A stretch of 19,661 nucleotides of DNA from a bacterium (GTDB taxonomy: Bacteria; UBP15; UBA6099; JAJRTR01). The stretch spans positions 1 to 19,661 of the forward strand of contig JAJRTR010000184.1 of NCBI GenBank assembly GCA_024278215.1, read 5' to 3'. The position numbers and the translations under genes were made by a program. Below are positions 4,252-17,907 of the stretch, piece by piece. Numbering within the stretch: the stretch's first letter is position 1; every line of letters begins with the position of its first letter. The notes under the pieces are model-generated. The model was not told the DNA's origin and did no database searches. It saw nothing but the letters and a program-made list of their open reading frames with translations.

Positions 4252-5643
4252 ATGAAGGTTTTTGTTGCGCATTGCGGGCCGAACAAATCCGAATACAAGT
4301 TTCACTCGCCGCCTATAGGGCTGATGTATCTTGCTGCTTATCTCGAGCGCGAGTTTCCCGGCATTACAATCGAACTGATGGATATGAAGGTGTCATCCGG
4401 AGGTCCGGAGGAAGTTGCAGACAGAGCATCGGAGTTCGACCCGGATATTATCGGTCTCGGCGCTATGACTGTACATGCGCCGCAATTGAATAAAACGGCG
4501 GAATGTGTGCGGAAAAGACTGCCGGACCCCCTCATTGTCGCGGGTGGTCCACACGCGACATGCTTCGCGGGTAAGGTGCTCGATCACACAAACGCTTTCG
4601 ATGCCGCTGTGCTGGGCGAGGGCGAAAAAGCTCTTGCCAATATTGTCCGCGCATACTCGAACGGCGGCTCTATTGACGACATCAATGCAGTGGCCACAAG
4701 GAAACATCTCGACTTCTCCGAGCGTGATATTATTGATAATCTCGATGATCTTCCGTTTCCGGCATGGGATAAGATCGATATAACGGAATACTTTAAATAT
4801 CCGAGCTTCACAATACTCGGCAAACGAAAATACATGGCGCTCTTCACGTCGCGCGCATGCCCATACCACTGCATATATTGCCACAACATTTTCGGCAATA
4901 AATTCAGGCCCCGAAGTCCGGACAGCGTTATCGAGGAAATAACGATTCTCGTGGAAAGATACGGTATCAGGGATTTCGATATTCTCGACGATGTTTTTAA
5001 CCTGAATAAAGCACGCGCCGCGCAGATTTGCAACAGGATAATCGAAGCAGGGCTCGACATCCAGTTAGCTTTTCCCAACGGACTCCGTTCGGACCTGCTG
5101 GACGAGGAAATGATAACACTGCTGCGCCGCGCGGGCACGACATACATCAGTTTCGCCATCGAAACAGCCAGTCCGCGGCTCCAGAAACTCATTCGCAAAA
5201 ATCTCAAGCTCGAACGCGCCGCAAACTCGATCCGCATCGCTAACAAACTGGGAATCCTCTGCAACGGTTTTTTCATGCTCGGGTTTCCGACGGAGACGGA
5301 AGACGAATTGAAAATGACCATTGATTTCGCGACAACATCGAAACTGGATGTCGCGCACTTTCTCAAAGTAACGCCCTTCGAGGGAACACAACTTTACGAT
5401 CTCGTGGACGACGAAACAAGGAAGGTTTTCGAGGACCACCCGGAATATCTCAATTACGAGGACAGAACTTTTAATCTCAGTGAAGTGCCGGGACCGAGGT
5501 TCCGCAGAATATTCAGATCAGCACTGATGAAATTTTATCTGAACCCGATACGGATACTCAGGATTTTCGCGCACCATCCCCACTGGACAAACCTTATCCA
5601 GTTTATCCCCACCGCGCTGAAACGTGTTTTCATCAAGGGCTGA
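4252..5643 (+). CDS. B12-binding domain radical SAM protein
   Basis: A 463-residue protein of the cobalamin-binding radical SAM class (BchE/P-methylase-like layout). Residues about 1-140 form a Rossmann-like B12-binding domain ('PPIGLMYLAAYLE', 'DIIGLGAMT', 'VAGGPHAT', 'VLGEGEKA'), without an obvious DxHxxG motif. The radical SAM core follows, with the iron-sulfur cluster motif C203-x3-C207-x2-C210 in 'RACPYHCIYC', then 'FDILDDVFNLN' and 'GFFMLGFPTET'. The C-terminal tail, 'FYLNPIRILRIF', is common in this class. Such enzymes methylate unactivated carbons, rearrange rings or modify lipids in the cytoplasm; the substrate is unknown. The ATG at 4252 has only a weak GAGAG about 12 bases upstream. 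The gene follows element C and precedes a DNA methyltransferase by 49 bases. Confidence 0.92.
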   Translation: MKVFVAHCGPNKSEYKFHSPPIGLMYLAAYLEREFPGITIELMDMKVSSGGPEEVADRASEFDPDIIGLGAMTVHAPQLNKTAECVRKRLPDPLIVAGGPHATCFAGKVLDHTNAFDAAVLGEGEKALANIVRAYSNGGSIDDINAVATRKHLDFSERDIIDNLDDLPFPAWDKIDITEYFKYPSFTILGKRKYMALFTSRACPYHCIYCHNIFGNKFRPRSPDSVIEEITILVERYGIRDFDILDDVFNLNKARAAQICNRIIEAGLDIQLAFPNGLRSDLLDEEMITLLRRAGTTYISFAIETASPRLQKLIRKNLKLERAANSIRIANKLGILCNGFFMLGFPTETEDELKMTIDFATTSKLDVAHFLKVTPFEGTQLYDLVDDETRKVFEDHPEYLNYEDRTFNLSEVPGPRFRRIFRSALMKFYLNPIRILRIFAHHPHWTNLIQFIPTALKRVFIKG

Positions 5644-5692
5644 ACATTGTTGAAAACAACAGTAATAAAATCAGGAAAGAGAATATCGCACT

Positions 5693-6661
5693 TTGAAAAA
5701 TAATCCACTGCCCAGGCTGGACAAAGACATCCAGCTCAGAAAGAAACTGCTCGAACACTGTCGTCTCGGACCGGGGGAGCTATGGGAGGATGAAGCCGCC
5801 GGCCACAGGGTCGGCTGCCTCGACGCCACGGACCCGGATGCGATAGCCATGCTGATGGACGGCGACCGCGCCACGCTCGCTGTTCACGATCCTCCTTACA
5901 ACCTCATTGCTTTCGACGAAAGAAGTATAGACGCTTACATCGGCTGGTGCAGGTTATGGATAGAAAACACATACGCGGCGCTTGCGGATGATGCTTCCAT
6001 GTATATATGGCTCGGCGCAGACCAGAACGACGGTTTCCAGCCGCTGCCCGACTTCATGATAATGATGCGCGGCTTCGACGCTTTCGCGCCGCGATCATTC
6101 ATCACTGTGCGTAACCAGCGCGGCTACGGCACACAGAAAAACTGGATGGCCGTCAGGCAGGAACTACTGTACTATACAAAAGGGAAACCGCGTTTCAAAG
6201 TACTGTATACAGACATCCCGAAAATATTAAAAGGCTACTATAAAACAGTTGATGGTCGCGTTCAGGAAAACATCGAAAGAAGCAGGTCCGACAACATACG
6301 GCCCGGAAATGTATGGGTGGATATCCAGCAGGTTTTTTACAGGATGGAAGAAAATGTTTCCGGCTGTTACGCCCAGAAACCATTGAAGTCGATAGACCGA
6401 ATAGTCGAATCCGGCAGCGAAAAAGGCGATACGGTGATAGATTTTTTTTCGCACTCGGGAACAACATTGGTGTCGTGCGAAAAACTCGGGCGAAGATGCC
6501 GCACAATAGACAACGATCCGGTATTCTGTGAAGTTACGATCAGGCGGCTCGAACATTTCAGGAAAACCGGCAGAACAGGATGGCAGAACAGCCACCCGTT
6601 CGAGGATGTTATTCCCGATAAAAACAATGCCGAAAACCGCGACGACAAGGGGCGGATGTAA
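5693..6661 (+). CDS. Orphan beta-class DNA methyltransferase (N4-cytosine/N6-adenine)
   Basis: A 322-residue DNA amino-methyltransferase. The catalytic motif IV 'DPPYN' (66-70) comes first and the AdoMet-binding motif I comes near the C-terminus ('VIDFFSHSGTT', 248-258), which is the beta-class order. The target recognition region lies between, including 'RNQRGYGTQKNW'. Motif I reads DFFSHSGTT rather than the usual DPFxGSGTT; similar variants exist in this family to my recollection. It transfers a methyl group from S-adenosylmethionine to adenine N6 or cytosine N4 in DNA. The start is TTG at 5693 with AGGAAAGAG upstream. No restriction endonuclease is visible, so a solitary epigenetic or host-adapted phage-type role is likely. 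The frame is intact across the T8 run at 6442-6449. Confidence 0.88.
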   Translation: MKNNPLPRLDKDIQLRKKLLEHCRLGPGELWEDEAAGHRVGCLDATDPDAIAMLMDGDRATLAVHDPPYNLIAFDERSIDAYIGWCRLWIENTYAALADDASMYIWLGADQNDGFQPLPDFMIMMRGFDAFAPRSFITVRNQRGYGTQKNWMAVRQELLYYTKGKPRFKVLYTDIPKILKGYYKTVDGRVQENIERSRSDNIRPGNVWVDIQQVFYRMEENVSGCYAQKPLKSIDRIVESGSEKGDTVIDFFSHSGTTLVSCEKLGRRCRTIDNDPVFCEVTIRRLEHFRKTGRTGWQNSHPFEDVIPDKNNAENRDDKGRM

Positions 6662-6693: not shown

Positions 6694-7788
6694 TTACAGT
6701 TGTGTAATAAAACCATATCCGGTGCGGGCGGCGGCACCGCAGGCGAGGAAGAACGCGGGTTCGTCTTCCACGCCGCGTCCCATGGTTGTCACACGAATGT
6801 CGTATTCGTGCATAGCTTCTATTGCGCAGGAACCGTCTTCTGTGCGCACTTCATGTTTTTTGTCGATGTTGTTGTCCTCAATTTGTTTTTCTATGAACCT
6901 GGTTTCGCGCGGCCCGAGTTTCGGCATCGCGACAACCGCCGGTGCGATCGCCGCGACATTCAACGATGTAATCGTATGCCTGCTTATTCCCCTGTGTCGC
7001 GGTCTTTCATCCTTGAATCCGATGCGCGGCACGATAATCGGTCTGCCGCCGAGTGAATGGACGGCATTTATCCATTCTCCTGTTTCAAGCGCCGTGGTGC
7101 CCAGGTCTGTGCCTGTGCCGACGATGCCTACTCCCATGGAAACGACGGCGACATCCGCGTCCAGCGCGGAGCGTGCGGCAGCGAGCGCGGAGAACTTGTT
7201 TACCGTTTCGATATCTCCTCCGAATGCGTTTCCGCAACTTATAACGGATGTTATGATTTGTCGTTTTTTCAGTGCTTTCAATGTTCTGCTGAAGGCGACC
7301 GGCAGGCAGGCGGCGTCCGTCATTATGTATGCGACATTGAGATCGCTGCCCGAAAGGTGCTGCAATGCCGCGCTCACCGGTGCTGCCATGCTGTGCAGTT
7401 CGGCGATAATCACCGGCATTGCGTCCAGCGACTCGAATGATAGTATCTTGTCGCGCCACGGGCTGCCTTCCTCCTCCGCGCTCTGTACGCTGAATTGCAG
7501 AGGAGTGTAGCGGAGTTTCATGATGTGGCCGGCGTAATGATGATTGCAGCCGCCTTCCGGCCTGTCGAGGTTCGCCATGACGAAGTGGCGCCCCCCGGAG
7601 CCGAGCCCCAGGCCGACTGCGGTGACATTCAGCAACACAGCATCGCCTTCGGCTGCAATGCCTGTAAGTGGCGGATAATTTACAGCACGCGCCTTGCAGC
7701 CGCCGACTTCCACGATCAGTTTCTGGATGTCGTCTTCGCTTTCGACAACTTCAATTACTGTGCCTGTCTTTCGTTCGATAGGGTTCAT
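6694..7788 (-). CDS. DUF3866 family protein
   Basis: A 364-residue protein that I recognise as DUF3866, a family of unknown biochemical function. Its signatures are present in order: 'AVNYPPLTG' (35-43), 'GDAVLLNVTAVGLGLGSGGRHFV' (48-70, in two blocks), 'GHIMKLRYTPLQ' (87-98), 'MPVIIAELHSM' (124-134), 'YIMTDAACLP' (154-163), 'GNAFGGD' (186-192), 'MGVGIVGTGT' (218-227, with Val where the family usually has Pro) and 'RHRGISRHT' (264-272). No transmembrane segment is evident, so it is probably cytoplasmic. Its ATG overlaps the larA-like stop codon as ATGA (7785-7788), so translation is probably coupled. It is the last gene of the Sir2 unit, and its stop codon abuts the element remnant at 6671-6693. 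Confidence 0.88.
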   Translation of the reverse strand: MNPIERKTGTVIEVVESEDDIQKLIVEVGGCKARAVNYPPLTGIAAEGDAVLLNVTAVGLGLGSGGRHFVMANLDRPEGGCNHHYAGHIMKLRYTPLQFSVQSAEEEGSPWRDKILSFESLDAMPVIIAELHSMAAPVSAALQHLSGSDLNVAYIMTDAACLPVAFSRTLKALKKRQIITSVISCGNAFGGDIETVNKFSALAAARSALDADVAVVSMGVGIVGTGTDLGTTALETGEWINAVHSLGGRPIIVPRIGFKDERPRHRGISRHTITSLNVAAIAPAVVAMPKLGPRETRFIEKQIEDNNIDKKHEVRTEDGSCAIEAMHEYDIRVTTMGRGVEDEPAFFLACGAAARTGYGFITQL

Positions 7789-9068
7789 AATATTCGGCCA
7801 ACCGGCAACGGAACTGTATTCGCCGCATCCGGTATTATAATCCCGTTGCCGCCGAGTTCCATAATTTCGGACATTGCCTGATCTGCGTTTTCCGCCTTTT
7901 TCGCTCCTGTGAGTTGTACATCCGATTCTGGAAGCGATGTGACGAGTATCACCCGTGCCGCAGCTGTTTTCTCGATGATTCTCATTGCAGTGTGTCCGTG
8001 TACGACATATTTATTTCGGAGCGCGTTTTCGATTACGCCGATGCCGCCCATTCTGAACCAGTCGCTGAAGCAGGGTGGGCCGAGTCCGGCGGTGCATTCC
8101 GCGAAAAGCACAATCGTGCCGCCTTTGCGCACTGCCCTGAAGGCATTGTCGAGTGATTTGTGCGACTGATAGAAGTTGATATCGCAGGGATGACCGCCGC
8201 AGGACGCGACAACCCAGTCGGCACGTTGTGTGATTTTCGCCCTGGCATATTTTCGCATATTTGCGCAGGCTGATTCGTGGGCGCGAAGGGGAGAGCCTGC
8301 ATGAAATTCCGCAGGTGCGCCGCCGGTACCCATAATCACGTTTATTCCGAACGAAACATCGACAAAAGCCAAAGCTTCGATCATGTCGCAGTGTATCGGG
8401 TTTCCTGCGAGTTTCAGTGTCGAGGCCTCATGCCGCGTGCCGCCGCCGGGCGCTAGATTAAGGGCGTGATTGGCGAGAATAGTTTCCCTTGCGGCGATGC
8501 CGGGCATTATGCTTTTGCGGCCACCGCTGAAACCTGCATAGTAATGAGGCATTACAACGCCTGTAATAATAAGGTTTGCCGCATCCGTCGCATGACGGTT
8601 TATGCTTACGCGTGTTCCGAGGGAGGTAGTCCCGACATGAAGCAGATTGTCGCCATCGTCGCAATCATGGTCGATCATTTCGACACGGGCGGCGACATCC
8701 GATCCGACAACAGCGCGTTTCTCGTCTTCCGTATGACCATAGTGGGTCCCGGTGGCGAAAAGTATTTTTATCTTATTGTTCGTCACACCCAGGCGGTTGA
8801 GCCTGTCGAGCAGCCGTGGAAGCCAGGCGCGAACGCCATACTTTCTTGTCTTATCTGAAAGCACAATGCAGGTCGGTCCGCCATTTATTATACAATTGTC
8901 GAAAGGCGCGCCGATGCTGTTCTTGTCGAGGGCATCATCGAACGCCGACAAAATTTCATTCTTATCTGTATAGCCGCATGGTAAATCGGGCTGTATAATC
9001 TGAGCCCTGGATGCAATATTATCGGGGATATTATAAACTTTATTTCCGAGTTTTATTGAAACGCCCAT
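7785..9068 (-). CDS. LarA-family nickel-pincer racemase/epimerase-like protein
   Basis: Taking ATG 9068 as the start gives 427 residues, close to the 424 of Lactobacillus plantarum LarA. Key LarA residues then fall almost at the reference numbering: Arg75 in 'SDKTRK', His109 in 'ATGTHYGH', His175 in 'PHYYAGFSGG', Lys185 in 'GGRKSIMPG' (covalent cofactor attachment), His201 in 'ANHAL' (nickel ligand), and Tyr300, Gln301 and Lys304 in 'FYQSHKSL'. LarA enzymes racemise or epimerise 2-hydroxyacids through a hydride-transfer step on the nickel-pincer nucleotide. A GTG at 9083 would add five residues but has no ribosome binding site, whereas ATG 9068 follows AAGGCAGGG. The gene starts within the last 29 bases of the receiver/HATPase gene. 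The cofactor synthesis genes larB, larC and larE are not in the window. Confidence 0.9.
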   Translation of the reverse strand: MGVSIKLGNKVYNIPDNIASRAQIIQPDLPCGYTDKNEILSAFDDALDKNSIGAPFDNCIINGGPTCIVLSDKTRKYGVRAWLPRLLDRLNRLGVTNNKIKILFATGTHYGHTEDEKRAVVGSDVAARVEMIDHDCDDGDNLLHVGTTSLGTRVSINRHATDAANLIITGVVMPHYYAGFSGGRKSIMPGIAARETILANHALNLAPGGGTRHEASTLKLAGNPIHCDMIEALAFVDVSFGINVIMGTGGAPAEFHAGSPLRAHESACANMRKYARAKITQRADWVVASCGGHPCDINFYQSHKSLDNAFRAVRKGGTIVLFAECTAGLGPPCFSDWFRMGGIGVIENALRNKYVVHGHTAMRIIEKTAAARVILVTSLPESDVQLTGAKKAENADQAMSEIMELGGNGIIIPDAANTVPLPVGRIL

Positions 9069-9882
9069 TGACCCTGCCTTCACCGCTCAAAAATCTTGTA
9101 AGGCGCACAGTGGAGCCACCATCCAAATATTTTATGCTGTCAACAAGTTTGCTGACAAGGAAGAGACCGCGGCCCCGGTCACGGCAGATACCTTCATCAT
9201 CAGTCGGGTCGGGTATGTTATCGACTTCAAACCCTTCTCCTTCGTCATTTATCTCGAATTCGAGTCTGTCGTCGTAGATATGGCAGAAAATGTTCACAGT
9301 TTTGTCTGGGTCCATCTTGTTGCCGTGTTCGATGGCGTTGATGCCGAGTTCGTGGAGAGCAAGTTTGATTTCCCATATTTCGTCCGGCGCAAGGTCGGTG
9401 CGAAGAAACAATTGCCCGATGAGTTCGTTGACTTTTTCGATGTAACTGAACCTGCTCTCGAAGTGGAAAGAAATCTCGTGTTTGATGCCGAGTTCCTCGT
9501 GGCTGCGCCTGCTTTTCTCGATAGTATTCCGAATTGAAGTCAGCAGATCAGCTATCTCGAATGGTTTGGAGATATAAGAGTCCGCCCCTGTCTTAAGTCC
9601 TGTGATCTTGTCTTCCTCGGTGCTTTTCGCAGACAGCATCAGGATGGGAATGGCATTGTATTCGCGCTGTATTTTAAGCCGCTGGCAAACTTCGTAACCG
9701 TCGATTTTCGGCATCATAATGTCGAGTATGATGAGGTCGTATTTGTTTTCATGCACCTTTTCCAGTGCATCGGCGCCATCGTAAGCACAATGAGGCTCGA
9801 AACCTTTGAAGGTCAGGTATCGTGACAACATGTTACACAAGTCTATGTCGTCGTCAACTATCAGAATTCGTTGTTTAGCCAT
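9040..9882 (-). CDS. Response-regulator receiver domain fused to RsbW-like HATPase
   Basis: A 280-residue two-domain regulator. Residues 1-120 form a CheY-like receiver with the acidic pocket Asp10-Asp12, phosphoacceptor Asp54 ('LIILDIMMP'), Ser84 and Lys106. Residues about 140-265 form a GHKL ATPase of the RsbW/SpoIIAB anti-sigma kinase type (HATPase_c_2), with an N-box 'ALHELGINAIEHGN' (175-188), a G1 box 'DEGEGF' (213-218) and a G2 box 'GRGLFLVSKL' (237-246). No dimerisation/phosphotransfer histidine domain is present, so it is not a histidine kinase. By analogy the receiver would switch a serine kinase or protein-binding activity, but no anti-sigma antagonist, PP2C phosphatase or cognate sensor kinase is in the window. 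There is no Shine-Dalgarno ahead of ATG 9882, which lies 8 bases after the Sir2 stop. Confidence 0.9.
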   Translation of the reverse strand: MAKQRILIVDDDIDLCNMLSRYLTFKGFEPHCAYDGADALEKVHENKYDLIILDIMMPKIDGYEVCQRLKIQREYNAIPILMLSAKSTEEDKITGLKTGADSYISKPFEIADLLTSIRNTIEKSRRSHEELGIKHEISFHFESRFSYIEKVNELIGQLFLRTDLAPDEIWEIKLALHELGINAIEHGNKMDPDKTVNIFCHIYDDRLEFEINDEGEGFEVDNIPDPTDDEGICRDRGRGLFLVSKLVDSIKYLDGGSTVRLTRFLSGEGRVNGRFNKTRK

Positions 9883-9890
9883 TGTTTATT

Positions 9891-10640
9891 TCAAATCATT
9901 TCAGTGATGCGTGGAAGCGCGGTTTCCACAGTTTCCCTTAGTACAACATCCGCCATAGAATCAACATAAGTCGGCTGCAAATTTACTACAATAAGTTTCG
10001 CTCCGTAGCTGCGTGCCATGCGCGGAAGCATTGATGCCGGGGCGACGGTAAGTGACGAACCTACTACTATCAGGACGTCGCATTCTTCACAGTCCTGCTG
10101 GGCCTGCATAAGAACTTTGAGCGGAAGTTGTTCTCCGAACAGCACCACATCCGGCTTAATGATTCCTCTGCGTTCGCAGTCGCAACGAGGCACATCGCTG
10201 TTTTCGAGCTTTTCCTTAATATCCCCGGAAGTATACTGTTTTCTGCATTCCATGCAAAAAGCCCGGTCGCCGTTCCCGTGCAATTCGAGCACATTCTTCG
10301 AGCCGGCCTTCCGGTGAAGATTGTCGATGTTCTGGGTGACCACACAGTGAAGGCGGCCTCCGGATTCCCATTCGGCAAGTGCGAAGTGGGCCGGGTTCGG
10401 TTCGGCGGCTGCAACTATTTTGGCGAGTGGACCCATGAACTGATAGAACTTTTCCGGCCTTTTCATGAACGAATCAATTGTTGCCACTTCTATCGGGTCG
10501 ATCTTTTCCCACAACCCCGACCCCGGGCTCCTGAAATCAGGGATCCCCGACGGGGTGCTGATACCGGCACCGGAAAGCGCTACGGTTTTTCGCGAGCCGC
10601 GTAATAGTGCCGCTGCTTTTTTGAAAAGTTTTTCACGCAT
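9891..10640 (-). CDS. Sir2-family NAD-dependent protein deacylase
   Basis: A 249-residue sirtuin. The NAD-binding and catalytic motifs are 'GAGIS' (24-28), 'GIPDFR' (32-37), 'TQNIDNLH' (102-109), catalytic His121 in 'ELHG', 'VVGSSL' and a C-terminal 'VVNL' strand. The zinc ribbon uses Cys129, Cys132, Cys153 and Cys155 (C-x2-C and C-x-C). The helix after 'FYQFMGPL' lacks the Tyr-x-x-Arg pair of desuccinylases, so deacetylation is the more likely activity. It removes acyl groups from lysines with consumption of NAD+, in the cytoplasm. It is the first gene of the minus-strand unit that continues into the receiver/HATPase, LarA and DUF3866 genes. The ATG at 10640 has no clear Shine-Dalgarno. It starts 51 bases after the thioredoxin-like gene ends, so read-through from that gene is possible. 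Confidence 0.95.
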   Translation of the reverse strand: MREKLFKKAAALLRGSRKTVALSGAGISTPSGIPDFRSPGSGLWEKIDPIEVATIDSFMKRPEKFYQFMGPLAKIVAAAEPNPAHFALAEWESGGRLHCVVTQNIDNLHRKAGSKNVLELHGNGDRAFCMECRKQYTSGDIKEKLENSDVPRCDCERRGIIKPDVVLFGEQLPLKVLMQAQQDCEECDVLIVVGSSLTVAPASMLPRMARSYGAKLIVVNLQPTYVDSMADVVLRETVETALPRITEMI

Positions 10641-10691: not shown

Positions 10692-11471
10692 TTATTTTGC
10701 CGAAGCTTTTTTAACAGACATCCCGGCACCGAGACTTTTGAAATACCTCTTGAAGTCATTATAGCCTGCCGGGTAGCCGGTGCGTTTCCTGATGACGCCG
10801 TTGCCGTCGAGCAGAAGAATCACCGGCACTCCATTAATGAAGTAGTTCTGTGCCATGGAATTCTCGTAATCAATGTTGATGGTGACGACATTGACTTCTC
10901 TGGAAAAATCGTTTTCGAATCTATCTATCTCCGGTCGTGTGCGCTTACAATAGCCGCACCATTTGGCCATAAAGAATAGAAGTTGCGGCATTTCTTTTTT
11001 AATACCTTCAGCGAGTTTCTTCTGGCTTTCGGACGTTTTTGTATTGCTTGTCAGGGCCGCTTCGAGTTGTTTTTCCGTAAAGTCTACAATCCAGACTCCC
11101 GACACGCCACGGTCGGGCCGCACAAGAAAAACAGAGGGGACATACTCGACGCCGTAACTGTAACGCAGTTCGCTGACTTTCATTGCGTCGATGGAAACGA
11201 CTTGCGCGCCATGTTTTTTTGCAAGTTTTTCCACCATGGGTATTTCATCTGCGCTGTCTTCAACAATGTCGGAATAAAAATAAATGAACACAGCCTTGTC
11301 GGCTCTCAGGGCGGTGCCGATTTTCTGTGACGATTCATCGAGTGTCGATGTTGCCGGCTTTTTCTCTACAGCGGGAACTCTTTGCGTCATAACCGTCATG
11401 AAGACAAACAGGAAAACGCATAATGTGAACGTTTTGTGGATTGTATATGTTTTGTTAATCAAGATAGACAT
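10692..11471 (-). CDS. Exported tandem thioredoxin-fold protein
   Basis: The chosen start, ATG 11471, has GAAGGAG just upstream and gives 259 residues; a longer frame to a TTG at 11531 has no support. Residues about 12-30 are a hydrophobic signal peptide or membrane anchor. Two thioredoxin-like domains follow. The first (about 50-140) keeps the cis-proline ('YVPSVFLV', Pro112) but has no CxxC. The second (about 155-248) has the active site 'WCGYC' (Cys172, Cys175) and cis-proline 'GVPVILLL' (Pro216). It probably reduces or isomerises disulfides, or buffers thiols, in the periplasm. The degenerate first domain may bind a substrate or partner. It is transcribed divergently from the acyl-CoA dehydrogenase gene. 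Confidence 0.85.
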   Translation of the reverse strand: MSILINKTYTIHKTFTLCVFLFVFMTVMTQRVPAVEKKPATSTLDESSQKIGTALRADKAVFIYFYSDIVEDSADEIPMVEKLAKKHGAQVVSIDAMKVSELRYSYGVEYVPSVFLVRPDRGVSGVWIVDFTEKQLEAALTSNTKTSESQKKLAEGIKKEMPQLLFFMAKWCGYCKRTRPEIDRFENDFSREVNVVTINIDYENSMAQNYFINGVPVILLLDGNGVIRKRTGYPAGYNDFKRYFKSLGAGMSVKKASAK

Positions 11472-11487
11472 TGCTCCTTCAACACAT

Positions 11488-11496
11488 ATTATAGCA
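11488..11496 (-). promoter_or_regulatory. Predicted extended -10 promoter for the thioredoxin-like gene
   Basis: The minus strand reads TGCTATAAT here: a perfect -10 hexamer with the TGn extension. No good -35 lies at 16-18 bases, which an extended -10 can tolerate. Transcription would begin about 10 bases before ATG 11471, right at the ribosome binding site, so the leader would be unusually short. Confidence 0.4.
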
Positions 11497-11594
11497 ATAA
11501 ATTGGAATAGGGCCATATTTTTAAATATCAAATTTCATAACAGGGAACCTGGCAGACAGCATATTTTCTAAATACGTAAAATAGGAACAACCTG

Positions 11595-11720: not shown

Positions 11721-13601
11721 ATGGCAGACTACAAAGTGGACTTAAGGGACGTGAAATTTGTCCTGAACGAGTATCTTGGATTGGAAAAATTGTGTGAGTT
11801 TTCGAGGTTCAAGGAACTCGATTTCGACGCGGACATGCTGAACGACATGATGCAGCAGGGTCTGAAATTTGCGCAGGAAACACTTGCTCCGATCAACAAG
11901 GAAGGCGACGAAGCCGGCGCAAAAAATGAAAACGGACAGGTGATAGTGCCGAAGTGCTACCACGAACCATACTGGACGTATGTCAATAACGGGTGGGGCG
12001 CGACGACCTCGAATCCGGAGTACGGCGGAATGGGCCTGCCGGAAATTATCAACACATGCGTCGGTGAATTCTTCTCCGGCTCGAACTGCTCGTTCGCTAT
12101 GATGCCGGGGCTGACAAAATCGGCCGCGTATGTTATCGACTCGTGCGGAAGCGATGAGCAGAAAGAGAAGTATCTTGAAAAAATGTACACGGGCGTATGG
12201 GCGGGAACGATGTGTCTTACTGAACCGCAGGCAGGCTCGGACGTGGGCGCCAGCAAGACTATGGCATACCCGATCGAAGGTAAAGAAAACTGCTACAAGA
12301 TTGTCGGCAACAAGCAGTTTATCACTTTCGGCGACAACAATATCACTGAAAATGTCATACATCTTGTGCTCGCTCGCACACCCGGCGCTCCCGCGGGTAC
12401 GAGGGGCATCGGCCTCTTCATCGTTCCCCGAAACAAGATCAACGAAGACGGCTCGTCCGGCGAAAGCAATGATGTGGCATGTCCGAGCATCGAACATAAA
12501 ATGGGCATCCACGGCTCACCGACCTGCGTGCTGAACTTCGGCGACAACGACAACTGCGAAGGCGAACTTATCGGCGACATCTACAGCGGAATGAAATATA
12601 TGTTCATCATGATGAACGAAGAACGACTGATGGTCGGCATGCAGGGCATGGCGATGGCCGGTGCGGCCTATATGGCGGCGCTTAAGTACTCCCAGGAACG
12701 CCAGCAGGGTTGCCACATCACAAAGATGAGAGAACCCGACGCGCCCAAGGTCACCATCGACCAGCACCCGGATGTGCGCAGGATGCTCATGACGATGAAA
12801 GCTTATACGGAAGGTATGCGCGCGCTGCTCTACACTACAGGCCAGTATATTGATTATGGACACTGGAGCGACGACGAGGAAGAGAAGAAAAAATACAGCG
12901 GCTTCGTCGAACTCCTTACCCCGATATGCAAAGCCTACTGCTCGGACACGGCTTTCAGGGTCACCGAGATGGCAATGCAGACACATGGCGGATACGGCTA
13001 CTGCTCCGAGTATCCGGTGGAACAGTATTGTAGCGACACAAAGATCACTTCAATATATGAAGGTACGAACGCTATCCAGGCGCTCGACCTTCTCGGTCGC
13101 AAACTGCCCATGAAGGGCGGCTCGGTGATGATGAGTTTCGTGCAGGAAATAAATGAGAGGCTTGGTAAGCTGAAGGACAATGAAGCAACTGCCGATATGG
13201 CCGCCAGGCTTTCCGATGCTCTGAACAAAACGCAGGCTGTCATCATGAAATTCATGGGGCTGTCCAAGGAAAAGAGCTTGCAGGCATACGTCCCGTTCAT
13301 CAACGCCTGCGACCTGCTGGAGATGCTCGGCGACTTCCTCTGCGGGTTCTTCCTCGCCGAAGAGGCCGCCATAGCCGACGGTAAGTTCAAGGCTATCTGC
13401 GCGGAAAAAGGCGCATCGGACGACGCGGCTGTCGCCGCGCTTCTGAAAGACAGCGAAGAGGCTAAATTCTACTATTCAAAAGTGCAGACAGCGGACTTCT
13501 TCATGAACAATCTTCTGCCGCGCGTGCACTGGAAAGAATCAGCGATAAATAATTTGAACACAGCATGTATGAATGACGTGTTCCCTAACCTCGTCGACTG
13601 A
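11721..13601 (+). CDS. Acyl-CoA dehydrogenase, large PF12806-type (DmdC-like)
   Basis: A 626-residue flavoprotein of the long acyl-CoA dehydrogenase subgroup. The N-terminal helical domain (about 35-155) is followed by the beta domain with the FAD/substrate motif 'CLTEPQAGSDVG' (165-176) and 'YKIVGNKQFIT' (192-202). The C-terminal helical domain contains 'MQTHGGYGY' (419-427) and the catalytic base Glu447 in 'SIYEGTNAIQALDLLGRK'. A further domain (about 480-600) matches the acetyl-CoA dehydrogenase C-terminal-like extension seen in 3-(methylthio)propanoyl-CoA dehydrogenases. It would oxidise an acyl-CoA to the 2-enoyl-CoA and pass electrons to an electron-transfer flavoprotein. Substrate chain length cannot be read from sequence. 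It has its own promoter, ribosome binding site and terminator, so it is monocistronic. No ETF or other beta-oxidation genes are nearby. Confidence 0.93.
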   Translation: MADYKVDLRDVKFVLNEYLGLEKLCEFSRFKELDFDADMLNDMMQQGLKFAQETLAPINKEGDEAGAKNENGQVIVPKCYHEPYWTYVNNGWGATTSNPEYGGMGLPEIINTCVGEFFSGSNCSFAMMPGLTKSAAYVIDSCGSDEQKEKYLEKMYTGVWAGTMCLTEPQAGSDVGASKTMAYPIEGKENCYKIVGNKQFITFGDNNITENVIHLVLARTPGAPAGTRGIGLFIVPRNKINEDGSSGESNDVACPSIEHKMGIHGSPTCVLNFGDNDNCEGELIGDIYSGMKYMFIMMNEERLMVGMQGMAMAGAAYMAALKYSQERQQGCHITKMREPDAPKVTIDQHPDVRRMLMTMKAYTEGMRALLYTTGQYIDYGHWSDDEEEKKKYSGFVELLTPICKAYCSDTAFRVTEMAMQTHGGYGYCSEYPVEQYCSDTKITSIYEGTNAIQALDLLGRKLPMKGGSVMMSFVQEINERLGKLKDNEATADMAARLSDALNKTQAVIMKFMGLSKEKSLQAYVPFINACDLLEMLGDFLCGFFLAEEAAIADGKFKAICAEKGASDDAAVAALLKDSEEAKFYYSKVQTADFFMNNLLPRVHWKESAINNLNTACMNDVFPNLVD

Positions 13602-15869: not shown

Positions 15870-16778
15870 TCATTCCGTCAGTGCGGCTACAAGGTTGCGC
15901 AGGGTGTTGTTCACAGGAGCGCGCAGGCCGTGTTTTCGCGCGGCGGCGACGACATAGCCGCATATATAGTCGATCTCGGTCTGTCTGCCCGCCGCCACGT
16001 CCTGGTGCATTGAAGAAATATTTTTTGCGGTTCTGCGCGCTACCCCCTCGACAAGTTCGACGGCGTTTAAGTTGCCGGGGTCCACACCTTCCGCGCGTGC
16101 GATTCCCTCTGCTTCCAAAACCGCGGAACAAAGGATGTCGTGTGCCGACTGTCTGTCGAGTATTTCTCCGTTTTTTATTCGCAGAAGCGCTGTAACAGGA
16201 TTGATGCCGACATTTATCAGAAGTTTTTTCCAGAGCAGTCCACGCACATTCCCTGTTGTTGTAGTGTTTATTCCCGCATTGTTCAGCGTGGCCGAGAGTT
16301 CCCGAACCCGCTCCGAGTCCGAACCGTCGAACTCGCCGATGCTTGTCTCCCCGCTGCCCGCATGCCTGATATGACCTTCAGCGAGAAGTGTAGCGCCTTC
16401 GGATGTCGTGCCCGCCAACACCTTTTCCGCACCGAAAATGGCCATAAGAATTTCAGCGTTTCCCATACCATTCTGCATTGTCATCACCCATGCGTCACTA
16501 CGAACACAGTCCGCAAGACGTGTCGCGGCGGCGCGTGTCGAGTATGCTTTCACCATGAATATCACGCCATCGCTGCCACTTACGACCGCCGGGTCCGCGG
16601 ACGTACTGATTGCGTGTGTCTCCCGTTTTTCACCGGTCTCGACGACAACACCCTGTTTTGATAATCGCCCGGCGCGTTCCGCTTTATAGTCGACAAGCGT
16701 AACATCCGTACCGGCGGCGGATAATTTCGCGGCGAACAGGCATCCCATCGAACCCGGTCCGACTATTGATATTTTCAT
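15870..16778 (-). CDS. 2-dehydropantoate 2-reductase-like protein (ApbA/PanE family)
   Basis: A 302-residue NADP-dependent reductase. The Rossmann motif 'GPGSMG' (7-12) begins the N-terminal domain, followed by 'VKAY' (Lys77) and 'QNGMGN' (Asn103). The helical C-terminal domain has 'WKKLLINVGINPVTAL', whose Lys185 aligns with the catalytic lysine of E. coli PanE, and 'SMHQDVAAGRQTEIDYICG' with Glu268. These residues match ketopantoate reductase, which makes pantoate for coenzyme A, but many family members have other 2-keto substrates. No panB or panC is nearby, so the precise role is open. A perfect AGGAGG ribosome binding site overlaps the stop codon of the upstream peptidase (TAGGAGG), which indicates coupled translation. 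Confidence 0.9.
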   Translation of the reverse strand: MKISIVGPGSMGCLFAAKLSAAGTDVTLVDYKAERAGRLSKQGVVVETGEKRETHAISTSADPAVVSGSDGVIFMVKAYSTRAAATRLADCVRSDAWVMTMQNGMGNAEILMAIFGAEKVLAGTTSEGATLLAEGHIRHAGSGETSIGEFDGSDSERVRELSATLNNAGINTTTTGNVRGLLWKKLLINVGINPVTALLRIKNGEILDRQSAHDILCSAVLEAEGIARAEGVDPGNLNAVELVEGVARRTAKNISSMHQDVAAGRQTEIDYICGYVVAAARKHGLRAPVNNTLRNLVAALTE

Positions 16779-16791
16779 GGCTGTCCTCCTA
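16779..16791 (-). promoter_or_regulatory. Ribosome binding site overlapping the upstream stop codon
   Basis: On the minus strand the M20 peptidase stop TAG (complement of 16789-16791) runs directly into GGAGG, forming TAGGAGG six bases before the ATG of the PanE-like gene. A ribosome terminating on the first gene therefore covers the initiation site of the next. Confidence 0.85.
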
Positions 16792-17907
16792 CAAGTCTTT
16801 CACACTCTCAATTATTTTCAATACCCACTCGGAGATCGTCTCCAACTCGGATATTGAAATCTCTTCGTCTGTCGTGTGGCAGTTTCTCATTGCAGTGCCT
16901 ATGGGTATGGTGGGAACACCATGTTCGTTGAAAATATTTGCGTCGCTTCCGCCGCCCGCTGCTTTTATTACAGGGTCTATGCAAAGTTCACTGGCGGCGG
17001 TGCATGTTGCCCGGATAACCGGCGAATCCGCGTCGATTTTGTATTGCCTGTATTCATGCTTGAGTTCAATCTCGAAACGCGCGCCGAATTCCGACGCGGC
17101 TCTTTCCACCGCACTTCGCATATCAGCGATCTGCTTTTCAAGCTTTTGCGGATTGTGGCTTCGCGCCTCGGCATCTATTACGACGGAATCAGGCACAATG
17201 TTTGTTGCGCGTCCACCCTTTATGACACCTACGTTGGAAGTGGTTTCATCGTCAATGCGACCGATATTCATGCGGGCGATCGCGCGGGATGCGACCTGGA
17301 TAGCGTTGATGCCCTTTTCAGGCTCCATGCCCGCGTGTGCCGAACGTCCGAATATTTTCACTATCAGCGTGTCGTGAGCGGGCGCGGCGTTGTAGACGAG
17401 GCCCGCCGGGCCGGGGCAGTCGAGGGAGAGCCCGAAATCTGCCGCGAACAACGCGGGGGCGGCGTTGCGCGCGCCCAGCAGTCCGATCTCTTCGGCCACT
17501 GTGATCGCGAGCAGCAGGTCTCCGTGTGGTATTTGCTTCTCGCCAAGCCGCGTCACCGCCTCGATAATGACCGCAAGTCCTGCTTTGTCGTCGCCGCCGA
17601 GAACCGTCCCGCCAGCCGACCGGATAATATCGTCCTCGATAACCGGCTCGATACATGTGCCCGGTTTTACTGTATCCATGTGCGCGTTCAGCAACAGCGA
17701 CGGCGCGCCCGCCGCGTCGCCTTTTATCCTCACAAACAGGTTGCCGCAGTTGCCGCCGATCTTTTCGCTTGTGTCGTCTTCTGTTATTTCCGACGTGAAA
17801 GGCGCGAACTTTCCCTTGAGATAATCGCATACCGCGCGTTCATTCTTCGATTCACTGTCTATCTTTATAAGCTCCAGAAACGTTTCTATCAGTCTGCTGT
17901 GCCGCAT
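16789..17907 (-). CDS. M20-family metallopeptidase, PepT-like
   Basis: A 372-residue zinc-dependent exopeptidase of the M20 family, close in layout to PepT/YqjE-type enzymes. Metal ligands and catalytic residues are visible: His76 and Asp78 in 'AHMDTV', bridging Asp106 in 'GGDDKAG', catalytic Glu139 and ligand Glu140 in 'VAEEIG', Asp163 in 'SLDCPG', and His344 in 'NCHTTDEE'. The dimerisation/lid domain lies between, with 'GRSAHAGMEPEKGINA' (187-202). It probably cleaves small peptides in the cytoplasm; specificity is not predictable. ATG 17907 has GGAG about 11 bases upstream. The next gene, PanE-like, begins 10 bases after its stop. Confidence 0.92.
   Translation of the reverse strand: MRHSRLIETFLELIKIDSESKNERAVCDYLKGKFAPFTSEITEDDTSEKIGGNCGNLFVRIKGDAAGAPSLLLNAHMDTVKPGTCIEPVIEDDIIRSAGGTVLGGDDKAGLAVIIEAVTRLGEKQIPHGDLLLAITVAEEIGLLGARNAAPALFAADFGLSLDCPGPAGLVYNAAPAHDTLIVKIFGRSAHAGMEPEKGINAIQVASRAIARMNIGRIDDETTSNVGVIKGGRATNIVPDSVVIDAEARSHNPQKLEKQIADMRSAVERAASEFGARFEIELKHEYRQYKIDADSPVIRATCTAASELCIDPVIKAAGGGSDANIFNEHGVPTIPIGTAMRNCHTTDEEISISELETISEWVLKIIESVKDL

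Follow-up and report, generated by a model that had tools for sequence, protein, structure and literature searches.

A conserved thioredoxin–sirtuin–REC/RsbW-like gene core and its probable lineage-restricted extension by LarA-family and DUF3866 genes

The window analyzed in this study, meaning the whole stretch of DNA examined, is one entire contig of 19,661 bp (G000:C162) from a bacterial genome of 4.55 Mb that is 95% complete. An earlier note, made from the sequence alone, had described a compact unit of four genes in this window. The four open reading frames exist, all on the minus strand, and belong to the families claimed for them, with Pfam scores far above the cut-offs. In the direction of reading, they encode a Sir2-family NAD-dependent protein deacylase (9891–10640; 249 aa; PF02146, 184.8 bits); a response regulator with a receiver (REC) domain and an RsbW-like HATPase domain, here called RRH (9040–9882; 280 aa; PF00072, 104 bits; PF13581, HATPase_c_2, 84.6 bits); a LarA-superfamily protein, here called LarA2 (7785–9068 from an ATG, or 7785–9083 from a GTG that gives 432 aa), in which both Lar_N (PF09861, 183 bits) and LarA_C (PF21113, 44.6 bits) are above the cut-off; and a DUF3866 protein (6694–7788; 364 aa; PF12982, 398.6 bits). 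The coordinates agree with the spacing given in the note. Sir2 and RRH are separated by a gap of 8 nt; RRH and LarA2 overlap by 29 nt when LarA2 is started at the ATG at 9068, which is preceded by an AAGG-like stretch, and by 44 nt from the GTG at 9083; LarA2 and DUF3866 share a 4-nt ATGA overlap; and coding is nearly continuous from Sir2 to DUF3866. The four genes are therefore packed as described, but the start of the unit had been missed, as it lies one gene earlier, at a gene for an exported, two-domain, thioredoxin-like protein (Trx) with a signal-like N-terminus and a WCGYC active site (10692–11531, minus strand; PF00085, 71 bits). This gene shares the strand of Sir2 and ends 51 nt before it, so the packed run consists of five genes, which, judged by spacing and strand, may share one transcript. 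A divergent gene for an acyl-CoA dehydrogenase-like protein begins at 11721. At 4252–6661, a B12-binding-type radical SAM gene precedes one for an N6/N4 DNA methylase, and no restriction gene is evident next to the latter.

The Sir2 protein retains the GAGxSxxSGIPDFR-type motif, the TQNIDNLH motif (TQNID), and the catalytic HG; it scored 283.7 bits against the NF001753 model, for which the cut-off is 243, and was also above the cut-off of PF02146. In the alignment of RRH, the N-terminal REC domain carries its phospho-acceptor aspartate in LDIMMP, and the C-terminal RsbW-like HATPase domain has both the N and G boxes, with the N-box ELGINAIEHGNK conserved.

Six further genomes of the same order (G001–G006) were used for comparison. 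Five of them (G001, G002, G003, G004, and G006) carry RRH; four of these belong to one genus of family f2 and the other to family f3. In all five, the RRH ortholog is 62–65% identical to that of the window and adjoins Sir2 in the same direction, the Sir2 ortholog is single-copy and 60–66% identical, and a thioredoxin-like ortholog lies directly upstream of Sir2. The order Trx–Sir2–RRH, on one strand, is thus found in three families, the window's family included, and the genes overlap or nearly touch in the relatives, as in G002 (Trx, 275–1060; Sir2, 1060–1794; RRH, 1810–2661). The sole relative with neither RRH nor Sir2, G005, is represented by a genome that is 80% complete. With the exception of LarA1 (see below), which occurs at a distance, none of the other tested window genes was found beside Trx–Sir2–RRH in the five relatives, and because the surroundings are not conserved, these three genes form an isolated island of kept order. 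In the f2 genomes for which the downstream sequence was read (G001, G003, and G006), the gene 3′ of RRH is on the opposite strand (a DUF4416 gene in G001), so the module ends at RRH there. Outside the order, a search of approximately 380 genomes gave four matches to RRH at E < 1e-33, three of which are REC–HATPase proteins with 32–42% identity (G560, G683, and G534); no Sir2 gene was found within 1.5 kb of these three full-length RRH-like proteins. From family to family in this order, most gene neighbourhoods are rearranged, as would be expected if every adjacency in the run, even that of Sir2 and RRH, came from random packing of a gene-dense genome and had no functional meaning. The retention of Trx–Sir2–RRH in three families, at 60–66% protein identity and in surroundings that are not kept, makes this explanation quite improbable, and the comparison supports the Sir2–RRH pairing as a conserved association.

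The two remaining genes of the run have a different distribution. LarA2 keeps the residues equivalent to H108, H174, K184, Q295, and K298, which include both catalytic histidines and the NPN-binding lysine, and its GTH, PHYYAGFSGGRK, and YQSHK motifs were aligned with those of MAR2, a solved LarA apoprotein, and 30 Firmicutes-type LarA proteins. Its scores are below every NCBIfam equivalog cut-off (LarAH10, 368 vs. 540 bits; LarAH6/MAR2, 337 vs. 500 bits), and by these profiles LarA2 is a divergent subgroup nearest to LarAH10/malate racemase. LarAH10 is a hydrophobic 2-hydroxyacid racemase/3-phenyllactate racemase (PMC11770544) of the LarA superfamily (PMC7583248; PMC11770544). LarA2 resembles LarAH10 and LarAH6/MAR2 in having both domains and the catalytic residues, and the genome has a LarC gene at another locus (435 bits; C64:36489–37622); given this catalytic set and the genomic LarC, an NPN-dependent isomerase activity is plausible for LarA2. 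At the first catalytic histidine (8735–8765), LarA2 reads GTHY (GTHE in its G002 relative), whereas the compared Firmicutes LarA proteins read G-x-HR, and the family name should therefore not be taken as a guide to its substrate. It also has HGHT where part of the compared Firmicutes LarA proteins have G-G/A-HK. The only homolog of LarA2 in the order is a fragment at a contig end in G002, with 53% identity over 136 aa.

A second LarA gene, LarA1, is cut by the contig edge, and its C-terminal part lies at 11–700 on the plus strand (PF21113, 110.9 bits); the LarA1 and LarA2 proteins are about 25–30% identical. LarA1 orthologs are found in G001, G003, and G004, convergent with RRH and approximately 11 kb downstream of it, and the arrangement in the window is the same. 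Judged by this position, LarA1 is outside the unit and is the conserved far flank of a variable interval. The genes between RRH and LarA1 in these three genomes have nothing in common with those of the window, so LarA2 and DUF3866 occupy an interval that varies between families.

The DUF3866 protein matches its Pfam profile over the full length (positions 1–318 of 318; cut-off, 25 bits) and contains the conserved motifs LHS, MTD, GGD-E, MG-G-G, R-H-G-S, and MGR. The gene is single-copy, and in a phylogenetic tree the sequences of the window and five order relatives form one clade with support of 100/99, by which DUF3866 is vertically inherited in the order. A foreign origin of LarA2–DUF3866 was rejected on this ground and because GC and GC3 are unremarkable. 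The upstream neighbour of DUF3866 differs by family, being a gene for a PMT_2 protein in f2, dnaA in G002 (from reading the translation), and LarA2 in the window. The predicted structure is of moderate confidence (mean pLDDT, 73), with residues 54–104 unreliable, and suggests a beta-rich N-terminal part and, C-terminally, a three-layer domain that appears SIMIBI-like: residues 124–364 of the model matched ParA/FtsY-type folds with Z ∼10 and an rmsd of 3.9 Å over 180 residues. Despite this fold resemblance of the C-terminal two-thirds, assignment to the SIMIBI P-loop NTPases (ParA/FtsY/MeaB) is at most tentative, given the moderate confidence of the model and the Walker A motif GxxxxGK[ST] being present in none of 68 DUF3866 sequences. 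The loop after the first strand of the three-layer domain bears the almost invariant LHS motif. Among PDB sequences, only chance-level matches to DUF3866 were obtained. A list of essential C. difficile genes includes one member of the family, CDR20291_1057, to which no pathway is assigned (PMC12548448).

The earlier note had proposed a common metabolite for LarA2 and DUF3866, with Sir2 and RRH regulating the racemase's activity or its acylation, making the four genes a single metabolic-regulatory unit; the tight spacing and the 4-nt overlap favour such a unit, and recurrence of the LarA–DUF3866 adjacency beyond this lineage was to be checked. DUF3866 was found in 185 of the 299 genomes of the Firmicutes-type phylum and in 69 of the 149 genomes of the Actinobacteria-type phylum. 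Its neighbourhoods were read in 89 distinct genomes, made up of 40 loci with flanks of ∼7 kb, 59 loci with flanks of 1.5 kb (together L018–L076 and L077–L116), three named genomes, and the five order relatives; the 59 loci represent the top-scoring DUF3866 matches and are not a random sample. DUF3866 had no LarA homolog beside it in any of these 89 genomes, and among the Firmicutes-type LarA genes, the 30 closest have no DUF3866 gene within their 1.5-kb flanks. In 38 genomes with both genes, the two are on different contigs in 31 and on the same contig but at least 0.8 Mb apart in seven (coordinates compared by eye), and many genomes with DUF3866 have no strong LarA match. Among the adjacencies of the four-gene run, whose complete failure to recur the earlier note had taken as the mark of chance packing, Sir2–RRH recurs in all five RRH-carrying relatives, whereas LarA–DUF3866 and RRH–LarA were found nowhere else. 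Because the LarA–DUF3866 adjacency is non-recurrent, the idea of a shared metabolite is unsupported; LarA and DUF3866 are not homologous either, showing no profile similarity (probability, 0.2%). Furthermore, the Sir2–RRH unit, with Trx, exists in genomes where no LarA follows, and we found no evidence for control of LarA acylation by Sir2 and RRH. We therefore regard the four-gene metabolic-regulatory unit as very improbable.

A second possibility is that LarA2–DUF3866 is a genuine, selected operon of the window's family only, added to the Trx–Sir2–RRH promoter for the same stress induction. The ATGA overlap and the near-continuous coding from Sir2 to DUF3866 speak for it; as the G002 relative of LarA2 shows, the LarA subgroup in question is an old one within the order; and since the window's own family is represented by one genome, the pair might be conserved within that family. 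However, the arrangement is known from that single genome, the only DUF3866 gene of G002 follows dnaA, and the LarA2 gene of G002 follows a gene whose protein has no Pfam match, not RRH. We consider a selected, family-limited operon unlikely.

The neighbours that DUF3866 does have elsewhere are of another kind. In the Firmicutes- and Actinobacteria-type genomes, sequence clustering and Pfam searches placed an M20 hydrolase gene directly upstream and a NUDIX gene directly downstream, with SpoIIM, XerD, and a metalloenzyme-superfamily protein as further neighbours, nearly all co-directional, in contrast to the window, where DUF3866 stands behind LarA2. M20 was found within 1.5 kb upstream of DUF3866 in 33 of the 59 loci, often touching or overlapping it (L027, L031, and L032). 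The recurrent neighbour of this family, which includes a listed-essential member, is thus an M20 hydrolase rather than LarA, and the M20/NUDIX/SpoIIM/XerD neighbourhood looks like a better route to DUF3866 function. The window itself has one strong M20 homolog (16789–17907), on the same strand as DUF3866 and approximately 9 kb upstream of it, next to a gene for a PanE/ApbA-like reductase (15870–17907 for the two, minus strand). In G001, the M20 and PanE-like genes adjoin each other and run in one direction, and in G005 they are near each other on one strand; in G001, G002, G003, G004, and G006, M20 and DUF3866 are on separate contigs. Given its distance, its pairing with the PanE-like gene in the order, and the separate contigs in the relatives, this M20 gene was rejected as the partner of DUF3866 here, and its nearness to DUF3866 may be accidental.

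Based on these results, the run is probably a composite operon, in which an old Trx–Sir2–RRH core was extended at its 3′ end by LarA2 and DUF3866 in this lineage only, the two genes having joined behind the core inside the variable interval between RRH and LarA1. Several points count against this reading. With one genome of the window's family compared, the LarA2–DUF3866 pair might be kept throughout that family; an ATGA overlap of 4 nt is usually the sign of an established translational coupling; the five core-bearing relatives represent only two other families, with four of them in one genus; and no gene for a STAS protein, a sigma factor, or a histidine kinase adjoins the core in the window. 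In a composite operon, LarA2 would probably isomerise a 2-hydroxy acid via the nickel-pincer cofactor, and DUF3866 would work independently of it, both being co-expressed with the core simply by read-through. As for the core, its domain architecture and the analogy with TciR and RsbW suggest that phosphorylation of the receiver aspartate gates the RsbW-like domain of RRH, which could then bind or phosphorylate a target encoded at another locus, either a STAS protein or a sigma factor. More speculatively, NAD+ and acylation status might feed into this response through the sirtuin, and its redox side might be the task of the exported thioredoxin.

The closest described counterpart of RRH is TciR of Vogesella indigofera, a regulator with REC and RsbW-like domains that was reported in 2025 without a known mechanism; according to that study, there was no functionally characterised protein of this architecture before TciR (PMC12826045, doi 10.1128/jb.00364-25). 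RRH has the same domain order, REC followed by the RsbW-like ATPase, a match judged by architecture. Whereas TciR is paired with the gene of its cognate histidine kinase, tciK (PMC12826045), RRH is grouped with genes for a sirtuin and an exported thioredoxin, and genes for a STAS protein, a sigma factor, or a histidine kinase are absent next to Trx–Sir2–RRH in the window. RRH shares an RsbW-like GHKL ATPase with RsbW/SpoIIAB and with SypE of Vibrio fischeri (as described in PMC12826045); unlike the RsbW/SpoIIAB partner-switching systems, it has no STAS, sigma factor, or PP2C phosphatase gene beside it in this order. It is conceivable, though tentative, that Trx–Sir2–REC/RsbW is an undescribed signalling module in which the sirtuin and the phospho-gated switch share a target, joining NAD+/acylation status with two-component phosphorylation; our literature search for a sirtuin, a thioredoxin, RsbW, and a response regulator in combination found nothing relevant. 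The four-gene metabolic account would in this way give way to a testable three-gene signalling module, and the TciR-like REC–RsbW regulators gain a conserved pair of neighbours, the sirtuin and the thioredoxin. In the distant genome G683, the REC–RsbW-like homolog (L201:1067–2319), which is 32% identical to RRH, has a STAS-domain gene directly 3′ of it, an arrangement that fits partner switching.
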